Below, piece after piece: positions 11,208 to 62,262 of a DNA stretch of 64,000 bases. The stretch's first letter is position 1, and every line of letters begins with the position of its first letter. The stretch is from assembly GCF_021129235.1 (NCBI RefSeq), contig NZ_JAJOMA010000001.1, forward strand, positions 1-64,000, read 5' to 3'. Under the pieces are notes generated by a model. It was not told the origin of the DNA, searched no databases, and worked only from the letters and a program-made list of their open reading frames with translations. The position numbers and the translations under genes are program-made. The stretch is from Kineosporia mesophila (lineage in GTDB: Bacteria > Actinomycetota > Actinomycetes > Actinomycetales > Kineosporiaceae).

Positions 11208-11259
11208 CGTTGTGTACACCTGGTACATCCGGTACCGGATGTACCAGGTGTACACAACG
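11208..11259. repeat. perfect 52-bp palindrome
   Basis: All 52 bases are self-complementary around the centre CCGGTACCGG (11229-11238). The left half reads CGTTGTGTACACC, then TGGTACATCCGG. There is no loop and no flanking T-run. GGTAC and TGTAC steps recur within each arm. It lies alone in the gap after the esterase. Confidence 0.95.
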
Positions 11260-11312
11260 GCCAGGGGCCTTCGCCGCCGGCCGGTCGCCGAGACCAAGCG
11301 CTGCTGGTGAGG

Positions 11313-11445
11313 TGACCGGCTCGTGCTGGGGTGACCGGCTCGTGGTGGGGTGACCGGCCTGTGGCGGGGTGACCGGACCGTGGTGGGGGGACCAGCTCGT
11401 GGTGGGGTGGCTGGACCGTGGTGGGGTGGCCGGCTCGTGGTGGGG
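11313..11445. repeat. 19-bp minisatellite, 7 copies
   Basis: Seven imperfect tandem copies of TGACCGGCTCGTGGTGGGG, with substitutions mainly in the TGACC and CTC positions. It fills most of the gap between the palindrome and the AIM24 gene (11260-11490). No credible gene uses it; frames through it are low-complexity Gly/Arg/Val. Confidence 0.9.
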
Positions 11446-11490
11446 TGGCCGGGCGGCCTCACGCCCGTGATCATGAGTTCCCGGTGGAAC

Positions 11491-13898: not shown

Positions 13899-14582
13899 TC
13901 AGCCGTACCGGTGGCTCTTCTGGCTGTGCCCCTTGGCCCGGGTGCAGATGCGGCCGTTCATGCTGCGGTGCCCGCACAGCTCTTCCTCGGGCTCTTCTTC
14001 CTCGGCGGCAGCGGCCTCGGCGGCTTCGACCGGGCGCAGGTCGATGACCTTGGCCTCGGCCGGGCTCGCCTGCGCAACGGGCTCGGCCCCGGCGGTGTCA
14101 GCGTCGGCGTCAGCCACGACAGTCAGCTCGGTCACCGCAGTCGGCTCGACCTCGGCCGTCTGCGTGACACCGGTCTCAGCCTCAGCCGGTTCGGTCGCAG
14201 CCGAGTCGGTCGCAGCGGAATCGGTCGCACCAGCCTCGGCCGCGACCGCCCCGGTCACAGCCGGCTCGGCCGCGACCGCCCCGGTCACAGCCGGCTCGGC
14301 CGCGACCGCCCCGGTCACAGCCGGCTCGGTCACGACCGCCCCGGTCACAGCCGGCTCGGCCGCGACCGCCTTCGCCGCCTTGCCCCGCCCGCGCTTCGCA
14401 GCGGTCTTCTTGGCGGGCTTGGCCGGCTCCTGCTCGAACAGCTCGATCGGCTCCGCGGACACGCTGGGCGCAGAAGCGGCCGGGCGCGCCGGCTTCGCAG
14501 CCTTCGCCTCTTCCTTCTTCTGCTGGGCGTATCGCGCGAACCGCGCCTCACGCATGGCCCGCAGGGCGTCTGCTTTGCTCAT
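13899..14582 (-). CDS. Ala/Glu-rich repeat protein with Cys/His C-terminal motif
   Basis: A 227-residue protein of unknown function. The N-terminus is a basic helix (ADALRAMREARFARYAQQKK). The middle is a low-complexity Ala/Glu/Pro/Thr region containing four copies of a 10-residue unit like EPAVTGAVAA. The last 25 residues carry CGHRSMNGRICTRAKGHSQK and end SHRYG, giving a C-x-H ... C ... H ... H spacing that could bind zinc. The ends look conserved and the middle looks like an expandable linker. It could bind nucleic acid through both basic ends; that is inference only. Confidence 0.7.
   Translation of the reverse strand: MSKADALRAMREARFARYAQQKKEEAKAAKPARPAASAPSVSAEPIELFEQEPAKPAKKTAAKRGRGKAAKAVAAEPAVTGAVVTEPAVTGAVAAEPAVTGAVAAEPAVTGAVAAEAGATDSAATDSAATEPAEAETGVTQTAEVEPTAVTELTVVADADADTAGAEPVAQASPAEAKVIDLRPVEAAEAAAAEEEEPEEELCGHRSMNGRICTRAKGHSQKSHRYG
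14237..14370. repeat. 30-bp in-frame tandem repeat
   Basis: Four full copies plus 14 bp of a fifth of a 30-bp unit beginning CGGCCGCGACCGCCCCGG, inside the gene 13899-14582. The fourth copy differs at two bases. Each unit adds ten residues to the linker. Confidence 0.92.
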
Positions 14583-17101: not shown

Positions 17102-17172
17102 GCCGGGATAGCTCAGTGGTAGAGCACCTGATTGTGGATCAGGAGGCGGGGGTTCGATACCCCCTCCCGGTA
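17102..17172 (+). tRNA. tRNA-His (anticodon GTG), non-canonical acceptor end
   Basis: A complete cloverleaf: acceptor GCCGGGA/TCCCGGT, D-stem GCTC/GAGC, anticodon stem CCTGA/TCAGG around loop TTGTGGA (GTG at 34-36, so His), 4-nt variable region, T-stem GGGGG/CCCCC with loop TTCGATA. The CCA is not encoded. Two features are unusual for a bacterial tRNA-His. The base before position 1 is A, so there is no encoded G-1. The discriminator is A73 instead of C73, and position 1 pairs G with T72. The gene lies 71 bp upstream of a HisRS gene with no terminator between them. Confidence 0.93.
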
Positions 17173-19750: not shown

Positions 19751-19768
19751 GCCCCCCACGCACTCCTC

Positions 19769-19851
19769 CGTGATCATGCAAAACCTCCCCGGAGTTCTAG
19801 AACTTTCCAACCAGGAGTTCTAGAACACTGGGGAGGTTTTGCCTGATCACG
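19769..19851. repeat. intergenic palindromic repeat, copy 2
   Basis: The same architecture as copy 1: arms CGTGATCATGCAAAACCTCC and its near-complement ending at 19851 (one change, ATG to CTG side), with two GTTCTAGAAC cores inside. It lies between the convergent hisG and pnkp genes and could act as a bidirectional transcript end. Confidence 0.88.
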
Positions 19852-24451: not shown

Positions 24452-24763
24452 ATGACCAGCACCTTGTCCCCCACCCTCGGCGGTACCAAACACGCCGACA
24501 CGCAGCTCTACGTGACCGCGACGCACAAGGTGCGGTCGACGTCCGGCAAGCCGCCGTTCGCCTGGGTGCCCTACGGGGTGCAGCACGCCTGGCCGGCCGG
24601 TTCCCGCAAGACGCTCTGCGGTGAATGGACCTCGGGCTGGACGGTGTTCTGGGAGCGCTCGTTCTCCGCCACCCCCCACGACGCCTGCCCCGCCTGCGTC
24701 GAGGCCAGTCTCCCGGAAGCCTCCCGCCGCCGCCTCGACCCGGCCCTGCGCCGCACAGCCTGA
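24452..24763 (+). CDS. small cysteine-containing protein
   Basis: A 103-residue protein of unknown function. It has LCGEW and, 25 residues later, CPACVEASL, a spacing that could form a small zinc site. The N-terminal part (HADTQLYVTATHKVRSTSG) is soluble, and the segment WVPYGVQHAWPAGSRKTLCG looks like a compact conserved fold. ATG 24452 has a good GAGAGGAG site. It is followed by a palindromic repeat. Confidence 0.6.
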   Translation: MTSTLSPTLGGTKHADTQLYVTATHKVRSTSGKPPFAWVPYGVQHAWPAGSRKTLCGEWTSGWTVFWERSFSATPHDACPACVEASLPEASRRRLDPALRRTA

Positions 24764-24773
24764 ACTTCCCTAG

Positions 24774-24889
24774 TTCGTGATCATGCAAATCCCCCAGCCT
24801 TCGGCCGGGAGGTGCCCCCACTCCCCGGCGTTCTAGAACTCCTGACTCGACAGTTCTAGAACTCTGGGGAGGTTTTGCATGATCACGAA
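24774..24889. repeat. intergenic palindromic repeat, copy 3 (interrupted)
   Basis: Outer arms TTCGTGATCATGCAAA and TTTTGCATGATCACGAA, two GTTCTAGAAC cores, as in copies 1 and 2. The left arm is interrupted after CAAA by 31 bp that belong to a different repeat (24790-24820), after which CTCCCCGG resumes. Confidence 0.9.
24790..24820. repeat. nested hairpin repeat inside copy 3
   Basis: A 31-bp insert beginning TCCCCCAGCC, with a TTCGG loop and ending GGTGCCCCCA. It resembles a short hairpin repeat common between Streptomyces genes. A related copy lies at 40653-40685 (TCCCCCAGCC ... GGTGCTCCCA). Confidence 0.75.
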
Positions 24890-25033
24890 GGGGTTGGGCG
24901 GGGACGTAGGCCCGCACCTACCGGCGCCGGTGCGCCTTGGGCGCCCACCCGCGTCCTCCAGCAGGTATGTGGGGTGAGCCGGCCCTCGGTCTGCGCCATC
25001 GCCTGTTCTTGTTCGCCGGGTATGGTCACGGGC

Positions 25034-25771
25034 ATGTCACGGGTTCCGCTCGTCCCTGGAGAGCAGACCGCCCCGGGCAGCCATCCGGACACCGGGCGGC
25101 GGATCGCGGCGGCGGCGTTCGAGCTGTTCGAGGCCCGCGGGTACGACGGCACCACCGTCGACGCCATCGCGGAGCGCGCGGGGATCGCCCGGCGCACGTT
25201 CTTCCGGTACTTCCGTTCGAAGGACGACGTGATCTTCCCCGATCACGACTCCCTGCTCGCCATGGTCAATCAGCACCTGATCGCGCAGACCGCGCTCGAC
25301 CCGATCGAGGCGATCTGCGGGGCGGTGAAGCTGGTGCTGCTCAGTTACCTCGACGACCCGCAGGTCTCGGTGCAGCGGTACCGGCTCTCGCGCAGTGTCC
25401 CCGCGCTGCGCGACCGAGAGCTGGCCAGCGTGCAGCGGTACGAGCGCACGTTCAGCCGCTATCTGCGCGGCCGGCTCTCGGGCAGCCTGCCGGAGGCCCA
25501 GGTGGTGCTGCGGGCCGACGTGATCGCGGCCGCGGTCGTCGCCGCCCACAACGCCGTGCTGCGGGAGTGGTTGCGCGCCGGGGGGAACTACGACCCGGTG
25601 GCCGACCTGGACTCCTCGTGCGGCTGGGTGACCGCTACGTTCGGCGCCCGCACCGACCCGCCGCCGGTCCCCGTCGGGGACCGGGACGACGTGGTGGTGG
25701 CCGTGTTCCGGGCCGGGCAGCCGATGGACGACGTGGTCGCCGAGATCTCCCGGACGCTGCGTAAGACCTAG
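25034..25771 (+). CDS. TetR-family transcriptional regulator
   Basis: A 245-residue DNA-binding repressor. The N-terminal helix-turn-helix is typical: RRIAAAAFELFEARGYDGTT, then VDAIAERAGIARRTFFRYFR with SKDD after it. The C-terminal ligand domain is specific and its ligand is unknown. ATG 25034 is the start closest to the domain. It converges on the Rrf2 gene with a 4-bp overlap. Confidence 0.9.
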   Translation: MSRVPLVPGEQTAPGSHPDTGRRIAAAAFELFEARGYDGTTVDAIAERAGIARRTFFRYFRSKDDVIFPDHDSLLAMVNQHLIAQTALDPIEAICGAVKLVLLSYLDDPQVSVQRYRLSRSVPALRDRELASVQRYERTFSRYLRGRLSGSLPEAQVVLRADVIAAAVVAAHNAVLREWLRAGGNYDPVADLDSSCGWVTATFGARTDPPPVPVGDRDDVVVAVFRAGQPMDDVVAEISRTLRKT

Positions 25772-40652: not shown

Positions 40653-40685
40653 TCCCCCAGCCCTGGAGGGCCGGGGGTGCTCCCA
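40653..40685. repeat. second copy of the nested hairpin repeat
   Basis: Begins TCCCCCAGCC, forms CCCCCAGCCC/GGGCCGGGGG, and ends GGTGCTCCCA. It matches the layout of the insert at 24790-24820. Confidence 0.7.
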
Positions 40686-51940: not shown

Positions 51941-51964
51941 TTCGTGATCATGCAAAGTCTCCCC
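51941..51964. repeat. intergenic palindromic repeat, copy 4 (left arm only)
   Basis: TTCGTGATCATGCAAAGTCT followed by CCCC, the left arm of the family. The core and right arm are missing. A weak match to a right end (TGGTCACGAAC, one change) is at 52229-52239, with the 8-bp minisatellite between them. Confidence 0.7.
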
Positions 51965-52088
51965 GGTTGCCACCATGGGAGGGAGGCCTCAGGGGGAAGA
52001 GCGGCACCTCGCCAGGTAGGCAGGGATCGGCTGCGCCCAGGCGGCTCCAGATCTGCTCTGGCTCAAGCTCCGGCGCGGGGCTTCTCCT

Positions 52089-52200
52089 GGCTCGAAGGCT
52101 CGAAGGCTCGAAGGCTCGAAGGCTCGAAGGCTCGAAGGCTCGAAGGCTCGAAGGCTCGAAGGCTCGAAGGCTCGAAGGCTCTGAGGGTCTGAGGGTCTCC
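52089..52200. repeat. 8-bp minisatellite, 11 perfect copies plus 3 degenerate
   Basis: GGCTCGAA repeated 11 times without change (52089-52176), then GGCTCTGA, GGGTCTGA, GGGTCTCC. It lies in the 816-bp gap 51930-52745, which holds no supported gene. The identical copies indicate recent slippage. Confidence 0.97.
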
Positions 52201-52468
52201 GGTGGCTTCGACTGGGTCGCCTGGGCGGTGGTCACGAACCTCGACCGGTTCCCGCTCAAGCTGCATCAATCGCTGGGTGAGTTTCGTGCGCCCTGACCGC
52301 ACGGAACCTACCCAATGATGTTCAAAGCCTTGTGGGGCAGCTCAATATGCGCCCGACTGTACGTGATGACACCGGTGCTGATTCCCGCCGCCTTGACCAG
52401 CCGTACTCGACCAGTCGGATACGGTGCCTCGGCGAGCGTCCGGCGCGCACTTCACCGCGCCCGGCACC

Positions 52469-52660
52469 CACCTCGTCCGGCAGCCACCTCGTCCGGCAGC
52501 CACCTCGTCCGGTAGCCACCTCGTCCGGTAGCCACCTCGTCCGGTAGCCACCTCGTCCGGTAGCCACCTCGTCCGGTAGCCACCTCGTCCGGTAGCCACC
52601 TCGTCCGGTAGCCACCTCGTCCGGTAGCCACCTCGTGCGGCGGCCACTTCGTCCGGCACC
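52469..52660. repeat. 16-bp minisatellite, 12 copies
   Basis: CACCTCGTCCGGTAGC repeated, two copies with C in place of T, eight identical, then two degenerate copies. It is the second tandem array in the same gap, 270 bp from the 8-bp array. Frames through it (for example YRTRWLPDEVATGRGG on the - strand) are repetitive and without a start context. Confidence 0.97.
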
Positions 52661-52745
52661 CACCGCGCTTTGCCCAACGCCCACCGCACCGCAGTATTGC
52701 CTCGCGGCCGATCGGGGCGCCGGGTTGCTCAATCTTCGAAAGGGC

Positions 52746-62213: not shown

Positions 62214-62262
62214 GTTCGTGATCAGGCAAAGTGTCCCGGGGACACCTTGCCTGATCACGAAC
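62214..62262. repeat. intergenic palindromic repeat, copy 5 (short, no core)
   Basis: GTTCGTGATCAGGCAAAGTG and its complement meet almost directly, a 24-bp stem with one mismatch. The GTTCTAGAAC cores are absent. It lies 17 bp past the ackA stop and could end that transcript. Confidence 0.85.

Follow-up and report, generated by a model that had tools for sequence, protein, structure and literature searches.

Has one short repeat been inserted into another at positions 24774-24889 of the window (the whole 64-kb stretch of DNA analysed here), and does this locus tell whether either of the two repeats moves? The initial annotation had answered both questions in the affirmative, describing a palindrome whose left arm is split by a 31-bp repeat. 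The structure of the locus was read again, the two repeats were searched for in the whole genome and in other genomes, and their orthologous places in a congener were compared.

A palindromic repeat split by a 31-mer

By direct reading of the window, the element at 24774-24889 consists of TTCGTGATCATGCAAA, the 31-mer TCCCCCAGCCTTCGGCCGGGAGGTGCCCCCA (24790-24820), CTCCCCGGCGTTCTAGAACT, a loop, and AGTTCTAGAACTCTGGGGAGGTTTTGCATGATCACGAA, in this order. It is an L-type palindromic repeat with the 31-mer in its left arm, and it was found in the window copy and in its ortholog in the congener G005. On the plus strand, the outer left arm (24774-24789), which is near-constant among the subtypes seen, pairs with 24874-24889. 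It is followed by the 31-mer, with its TCCCCC end pointing outward, the inner left arm (24821-24840), an 11-nt loop private to this copy (CCTGACTCGAC, 24841-24851), and the right arm (24852-24889), which is unsplit. The split of the left arm is thus as described, and the palindrome copies at 1363-1447 and 19767-19851 indeed lack the insert. When the 31-mer was excised in silico, TGATCATGCAAA|CTCCCCGG was obtained, as compared with TGATCATGCAAAACCTCCCCGG in the unsplit arm. The expectation that excision restores the arm nearly exactly holds for the arm as a whole, but two bases (AC) are missing, so that the arm does not become intact. A target-site duplication at the 31-mer, which had been proposed as a thing to look for, was not found in the comparison of the arms with and without the insert; AC is replaced instead.

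The composite folds with a z-score of -7.8 against shuffled sequences, and a plain (unsplit) copy with a z-score of -12.3. For the 31-mer on its own, folding with DNA parameters gave no advantage over dinucleotide shuffles (z = +0.30), which makes the label "hairpin" previously given to it a weak one. At the Rfam gathering score, the only match in the 64-kb window is a tRNA at 17102-17172, and neither repeat is a known RNA family. The composite is flanked on the upstream side by a 103-aa ORF (24452-24763, plus strand; the start codon is my choice), whose stop codon lies 10 bp before the palindrome and which has no Pfam match at E 0.01, and on the downstream side by a gene for a TetR-family regulator (25034-25771, plus strand; TetR_N, 2.9e-17). 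A second copy of the 31-mer had been assigned to 40653-40685. The sequence there (plus strand) turned out to be a diverged cousin with seven edits, which is free-standing and has no palindrome end before it.

The composite belongs to a recurrent class

The genome containing the window (G000) is a 7.78-Mb draft of 61 contigs, and that of the congener G005 is a draft of about 90 contigs. The arm motif TGATCATGCAAANC occurs 183+191 times in G000 with one mismatch or less, as compared with 0 for the reversed-pattern control, which corresponds to about 190 palindrome elements. The stricter L-type arm TGATCATGCAAAACCTCCCC was found 119+121 times in G000 and 99+110 times in G005, and it had no match in the other 36 of the 38 genomes searched, four of them congeners. 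The palindrome family is patchy between congeners.

Is the 31-mer similarly frequent, and where does it lie? The genome-wide search that the initial annotation had called for found 20 copies in G000 with three mismatches or less (eight of them exact), as compared with 0 in the control, and all 20 come after a palindrome end. With four edits or less, 21 of the 22 copies in 579 kb of G000 come after a palindrome end and the 22nd comes after a degenerate end. The same position was seen for all 34 copies in the part of G005 that was read, a sample biased to the L-type as its loci were chosen mainly by a pattern including the L-type junction. No free-standing exact copy of the 31-mer as a possible donor was found in G000. 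The composite is not a single encounter of two repeats; it belongs to a class that recurs, with the 31-mer at a fixed site.

There are two settings of the 31-mer, namely the L-type CAAA-31mer-CTCCCCGG.GTTCTAGAACT... and the S-type CAA-31mer-CTTCCCCGGGGAAGG... A short element at C12:361179 of G000 has related units in both arms. Using a simple gene finder, it was found that the elements lie between ORFs in 27 of 27 cases in the G000 blocks and in 22 of 23 cases in the G005 blocks. Tandem or convergent gaps hold 44 of these 49 intergenic elements, a weak excess over the 285 such gaps among all 371 gaps longer than 50 bp.

Filled and empty palindromes at orthologous places

Is the insertion at the window locus a recent one? 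The orthologous place in G005 (C1:1430740-1430849) is occupied by the same composite, whose loop differs from that of the window copy, in the direct orientation, at only one of 11 bases. In G001-G004, the two neighbour genes are present, with no palindrome of this family between them. As judged from the sequences of the two species, the presence of the same composite in G005 indicates that the insertion at 24774-24889 is old and predates the split of G000 and G005. The alignment of relatives was carried out as had been suggested, and an unsplit form of the locus was found in none of the five congeners. Thus, the part of the original claim that took this locus itself as direct evidence of movement did not hold. 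In the G003 gap orthologous to window 24764-25033, a different, unrelated palindrome (arms around GAACCAAGGCGGCTTGAGGACGTTC) was seen.

The general part of that claim, that one of the repeat types moves, fared better at other loci. The comparison covered 224 kb of G000 and 214 kb of G005, both of them drafts in which some palindrome interiors could be misassembled, plus further blocks, 19 further G005 loci of the 31-mer (18 mapped to G000, C1:465180 only by a short weak match), and 15 further G000 loci of the 31-mer (13 mapped to G005). Orthologs were located by flank homology, and the 11-nt loop and two spacer triplets served as the tag of each palindrome copy. Chance palindromes within coding sequence, such as C1:11467, C1:143194, C1:143230, C10:66951, and C10:111010, were left out. 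For 20 of the 25 L-type ortholog pairs, the distance of loop and triplets was four or less in one orientation, as compared with 24 of 600 non-orthologous comparisons. The other five pairs (C5:173787, C14:90576, C13:60267, C24:78255, and C5:129091) were dropped due to a poor loop match. Among the 20 loop-matched pairs, the 31-mer is found in G005 only (10 pairs), in G000 only (one), in both (one), or in neither (eight); these figures are counts and not rates, since the loci were partly selected for carrying the insert.

Ten of the 11 discordant pairs share the junction CAAA[31-mer]CTCCCC in the filled palindrome and CAAA-AC-CTCCCC in the empty one. The 11th pair (G005 C1:663310) lacks CTCCCC, which represents a small deletion at the junction. 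Outside this strict set, G000 C24:34497 is plain and G005 C8:260474 is filled with an identical loop, G000 C10:81936 is filled and corresponds to a plain S-type element in G005, and at several loci where one species has the 31-mer, the other has no element. At the few aligned sites where one species lacks the palindrome, no clear target duplication was seen. The same palindrome occurs with and without the insert, and the exact 31-mer also splits repeats of Streptomycetaceae (see below). Taken together, these sequence comparisons indicate that the 31-mer moves or, at a minimum, undergoes gain and loss. Composites of one repeat within another usually come to notice only after the event. Here, filled and empty orthologs share a defined junction, so that each locus can be examined for gain or loss.

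A few other differences between the two species were noted. The palindrome is absent or a short remnant in one species at G000 C1:154646/G005 C1:1553398 and at G000 C1:161190/G005 C1:1559783. Differing arm types (ACCTCCCC versus GTGTCCCC kinds) occupy orthologous places at 19767-19851/G005 C1:1424840, where the G005 palindrome has other, mutually complementary arms (TGTGTCCCC/GGAGACACT), and at G000 C14:90576/G005 C1:49562. In the unsplit copies among these arm-type swaps, both arms are complementary, as if they had been replaced jointly.

The 31-mer outside the genus

In a collection of species genomes, the exact 31-mer was found in at least 117 stretches, and the 80 matches listed are all from Streptomyces, Kitasatospora, Actinacidiphila, or Streptacidiphilus (Streptomycetaceae). 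None of the 82 Streptomycetaceae copies with flanks, among the matches listed, lies behind TGATCATGCAA. What, then, does the 31-mer split in these bacteria? For 51 of 84 copies among the matches listed, the two flanks also occur in another sequence of the pool at a spacing of 0-8 bases, as compared with 35 of at most 252 in a re-paired control, so that about 12 of the 51 could have arisen by chance. The split sequences are themselves repeats, and 2-4 host bases are commonly missing. Such host repeats are GCGCAGTTC[CC]CGCGCCCC, its reverse partner GGGGCGCGGGG[AACT]GCGCGAC, CCCCAGCTACC[GCTG]GGAGGTGCCCC, which is a relative of the 31-mer, and GTCCTCAAAC[GCCG]GACGGGCTGG; the bracketed bases are gone in the filled copies. 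Nested copies, in which the 31-mer lies inside its own relative (CCCCAGCTACC[31-mer]GGAGGTGCCCC or near), were seen in the Streptomycetaceae stretches L273, L294, L300, and L332.

Five unsplit Streptomycetaceae host repeats of 26 nt each were folded, and the z-scores were -2.3, -2.3, -0.2, +0.6, and -0.8. Palindrome targeting did not hold up as a rule in Streptomycetaceae, as only two of the five fold better than shuffles. Thus, palindrome targeting is clear in the genus of the window and not in Streptomycetaceae.

In 394 genomes drawn from the class, the 31-mer was found with one mismatch or less in five, which are G000 and four genomes of one other genus belonging to a different order. The 31-nt module is common, exactly, to bacterial orders of one class, and if mobile it would rank with the smallest units of mobile DNA. 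In G001, G003, and G004, eight of the 11 pattern matches inspected by eye resemble free-standing cousins with unrelated flanks, and none of the 11 lies behind TGATCATGCAA. A plasmid or phage origin was also considered and rejected. Four plasmid records of Streptomyces contain the 31-mer (E up to 0.01), a query with the composite matched one plasmid record (in its 31-mer part only) and no phage, and the junction pattern of the composite had no match among viral contigs.

In-place inversion of palindrome interiors

The comparison of G000 and G005 also revealed that the interior of the palindrome is inverted in place at five loci, once together with a gene. Three of the 20 L-type pairs match only as the reverse complement, with 15 differences in the direct and three in the inverted orientation at C1:1382 (the window copy at 1363-1447), 12 and two at C2:17424, and 13 and none at C8:14414. 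An interior distance of three or less was reached in four of 600 comparisons by chance. In a short element at C1:205792, the 31-mer is in opposite arms between the species (34 versus 11 differences).

At G000 C1:144964-146084 and G005 C1:1543646-1544827, a unit of 1.1 kb is inverted between fixed flanks, with 91.9% identity on the minus strand. In this unit, a gene for an AbiEi_4 protein lies between two outward palindrome arms, and there is a sub-threshold match to the REase_MTES_1575 nuclease model. Both arms have the 31-mer in G005 and neither has it in G000. Full-length matches of the unit were found at one place only in G000 and in G005. It was considered as an autonomous IS with the ends of the palindrome, which was rejected, as it encodes the AbiEi-like protein and no transposase.

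The arms, of about 70 bp or less, are shorter than common short reads, and misassembly behind the inversions is thus unlikely. As far as can be told from the aligned sequences, the in-place inversions point to a putative active route of palindrome processing.

How the 31-mer may spread

I favour, with guarded confidence, a reading of the 31-mer as a very small mobile module that is not autonomous and that, in this genus, would enter palindromes at a fixed point and in one orientation, replacing AC. The module lies where the outer stem (TGATCATGCAAA) gives way to the inner stem (CTCCCC), in the position held by AC in the empty arm. The palindrome serving as target may be extruded, forming a hairpin or cruciform, or may be single-stranded at the fork. 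An enzyme supplied in trans would cut the stem at the step from the outer to the inner stem and join a copy of the module to it. The interior might be inverted as a side effect of this processing of the hairpin, or when a strand switches from one arm to the other.

What kind of enzyme might this be? A Y1 transposase (PF01797) had no match in G000, G005, and three of the four other congeners, drafts that are 97-99% complete, as compared with one match in G004 and matches in five of 14 named genomes as the control. Among the palindrome ends that were read, no transposase-coding element with such ends was found either; the only long unit seen between them is the 1.1-kb AbiEi_4 unit. A more specific version of the idea, namely that an as yet undescribed enzyme, neither Y1 nor a duplication-making DDE transposase, inserts the 31-nt module into extruded palindromes and other repeats, replacing 2-4 bases, and that the same activity flips the interiors, is rather unlikely to be right in full. 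My estimate of it was lowered because only two of the five Streptomycetaceae host repeats fold better than shuffles.

Alternatively, the 31-mer may spread among palindromes by ectopic exchange (gene conversion or template switching) within the arm sequence common to them, without transposition of its own. This is a real possibility, to which I give less than an even chance. All the near-exact copies read in G000 and G005 are in the same shared arm sequence, a free exact copy was not found in G000, and the 1.1-kb unit with both arms filled in G005 and both empty in G000 is what arm-to-arm copying predicts. The junctions are also compatible with a switch of strands between copies at short stretches of homology. 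However, the 11 discordant pairs show 5 differences in 33 positions both for the triplet that lies 6 bases inward of the insert and for the triplet of the other arm. As the triplets are equally conserved in both arms, no exchanged tract is seen beyond CTCCCC, whereas ordinary gene conversion should extend inward. An exchanged tract would have to end within about 6 bp, and usual recombination tracts are far longer than about 6 bp of shared sequence. Moreover, ectopic exchange does not account for the presence of this 31-mer in different repeats in Streptomycetaceae.

It is unlikely that the process went in the opposite direction, with ancestral inserts most of which G000 lost through palindrome correction, in which the nascent strand copies the intact arm and AC is restored exactly. 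Quasi-palindrome correction is an established process and would yield perfect arms as seen in G000. In addition, no outgroup searched has the L-type arm, so that the polarity cannot be set and gain looks the same as loss at each locus. Nevertheless, the strict set would require 10 precise restorations in G000 versus one in G005, and the entry of the 31-mer into other repeats elsewhere would be left unexplained.

I give only a small probability to the explanation that the composites are bidirectional terminators or RNA-processing hairpins under host selection, with the 31-mer as a variant of the stem. Such a role would agree with the position of 49 of the 50 elements examined outside predicted ORFs, with the weak excess in tandem or convergent gaps (44 of 49), with the compensating changes between arms, and with the strong folds of the composite and the plain copy. 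Selection does not account for an identical 31-mer gained at one point, for a 31-mer common to Streptomycetaceae, or for four congeners without the L-type arm. A terminator role can be true alongside mobility of the 31-mer.

Finally, that a single ancient insertion gave rise to a composite subfamily transposing as a whole is very improbable: near-identical composites do exist at many loci with different flanks, but 11 of the 20 loop-matched loci are filled in one species and empty in the other, which contradicts movement as a unit for these 11 (it could still hold for others), and the private loops vary from copy to copy.

Relation to known repeat systems

Among known elements, MITEs are similar in that the palindrome has long inverted repeats and about 190 copies, the short copies having no coding capacity. 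Unlike MITEs, the 31-mer has neither a target duplication nor long inverted repeats. IS elements that target REPs are about 1 kb or more in length. According to PMC1525189, IS elements target REPs, and palindromic repeats are insertion hot spots. The present palindromes likewise serve as insertion sites; in contrast to those systems, the insert is of 31 nt and not a whole IS.

REPs and REPINs are thought to be moved in trans by the Y1 transposase TnpA-REP (RAYT), and the role of GTAG in the action of TnpA-REP has been treated (PMC8266576). The palindrome family resembles them in being short, high in copy number, palindromic, and extragenic. In contrast to them, a GTAG/CTAC or CGTC/GACG tag was found in neither the 31-mer nor the palindrome arms by direct reading of the window copy, and a Y1_Tnp match was found in neither G000 nor G005; the latter also distinguishes the repeats from IS200/IS605-type elements with their Y1 TnpA. 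With no tag and no transposase, the repeats were not classed as REPs.

A precedent is that of REP units inside longer palindromes, which PMC3733652 describes for GTAG-15 of A. variabilis, CGTC-1 of H. neapolitanus, and GTAG-23 of T. roseum. Hundreds of empty target palindromes exist in T. roseum, and none were found in A. variabilis and H. neapolitanus (PMC3733652). Here too, a short repeated unit lies within a second, palindromic family, with empty targets as in T. roseum. The present system differs from those three in having no tag of the GTAG or CGTC kind, and in that filled and empty palindromes were compared at orthologs of two species. In a collection of open-access papers searched by keyword and by sequence string, no paper describing either repeat was found, as judged by title and abstract.

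Other repeats in the window

Further members of the palindrome family and some other repeats are present in the window. A single-arm remnant of the family lies at 51941-51967 (plus strand), and its G005 counterpart is likewise a remnant. A short palindrome with GTGTCC arms at 62215-62261 is also present in G005, with compensating changes in the arms. Outside the family, a perfect palindrome of 52 bp, consisting of two 26-bp arms with no spacer, was found at 11208-11259. Degenerate tandem arrays with units of 19 bp and 15 bp lie at 11286-11471 and 14138-14385, and neighbouring tandem arrays with an 8-bp unit (GGCTCGAA) and a 16-bp unit lie at 52073-52213 and 52405-52699.
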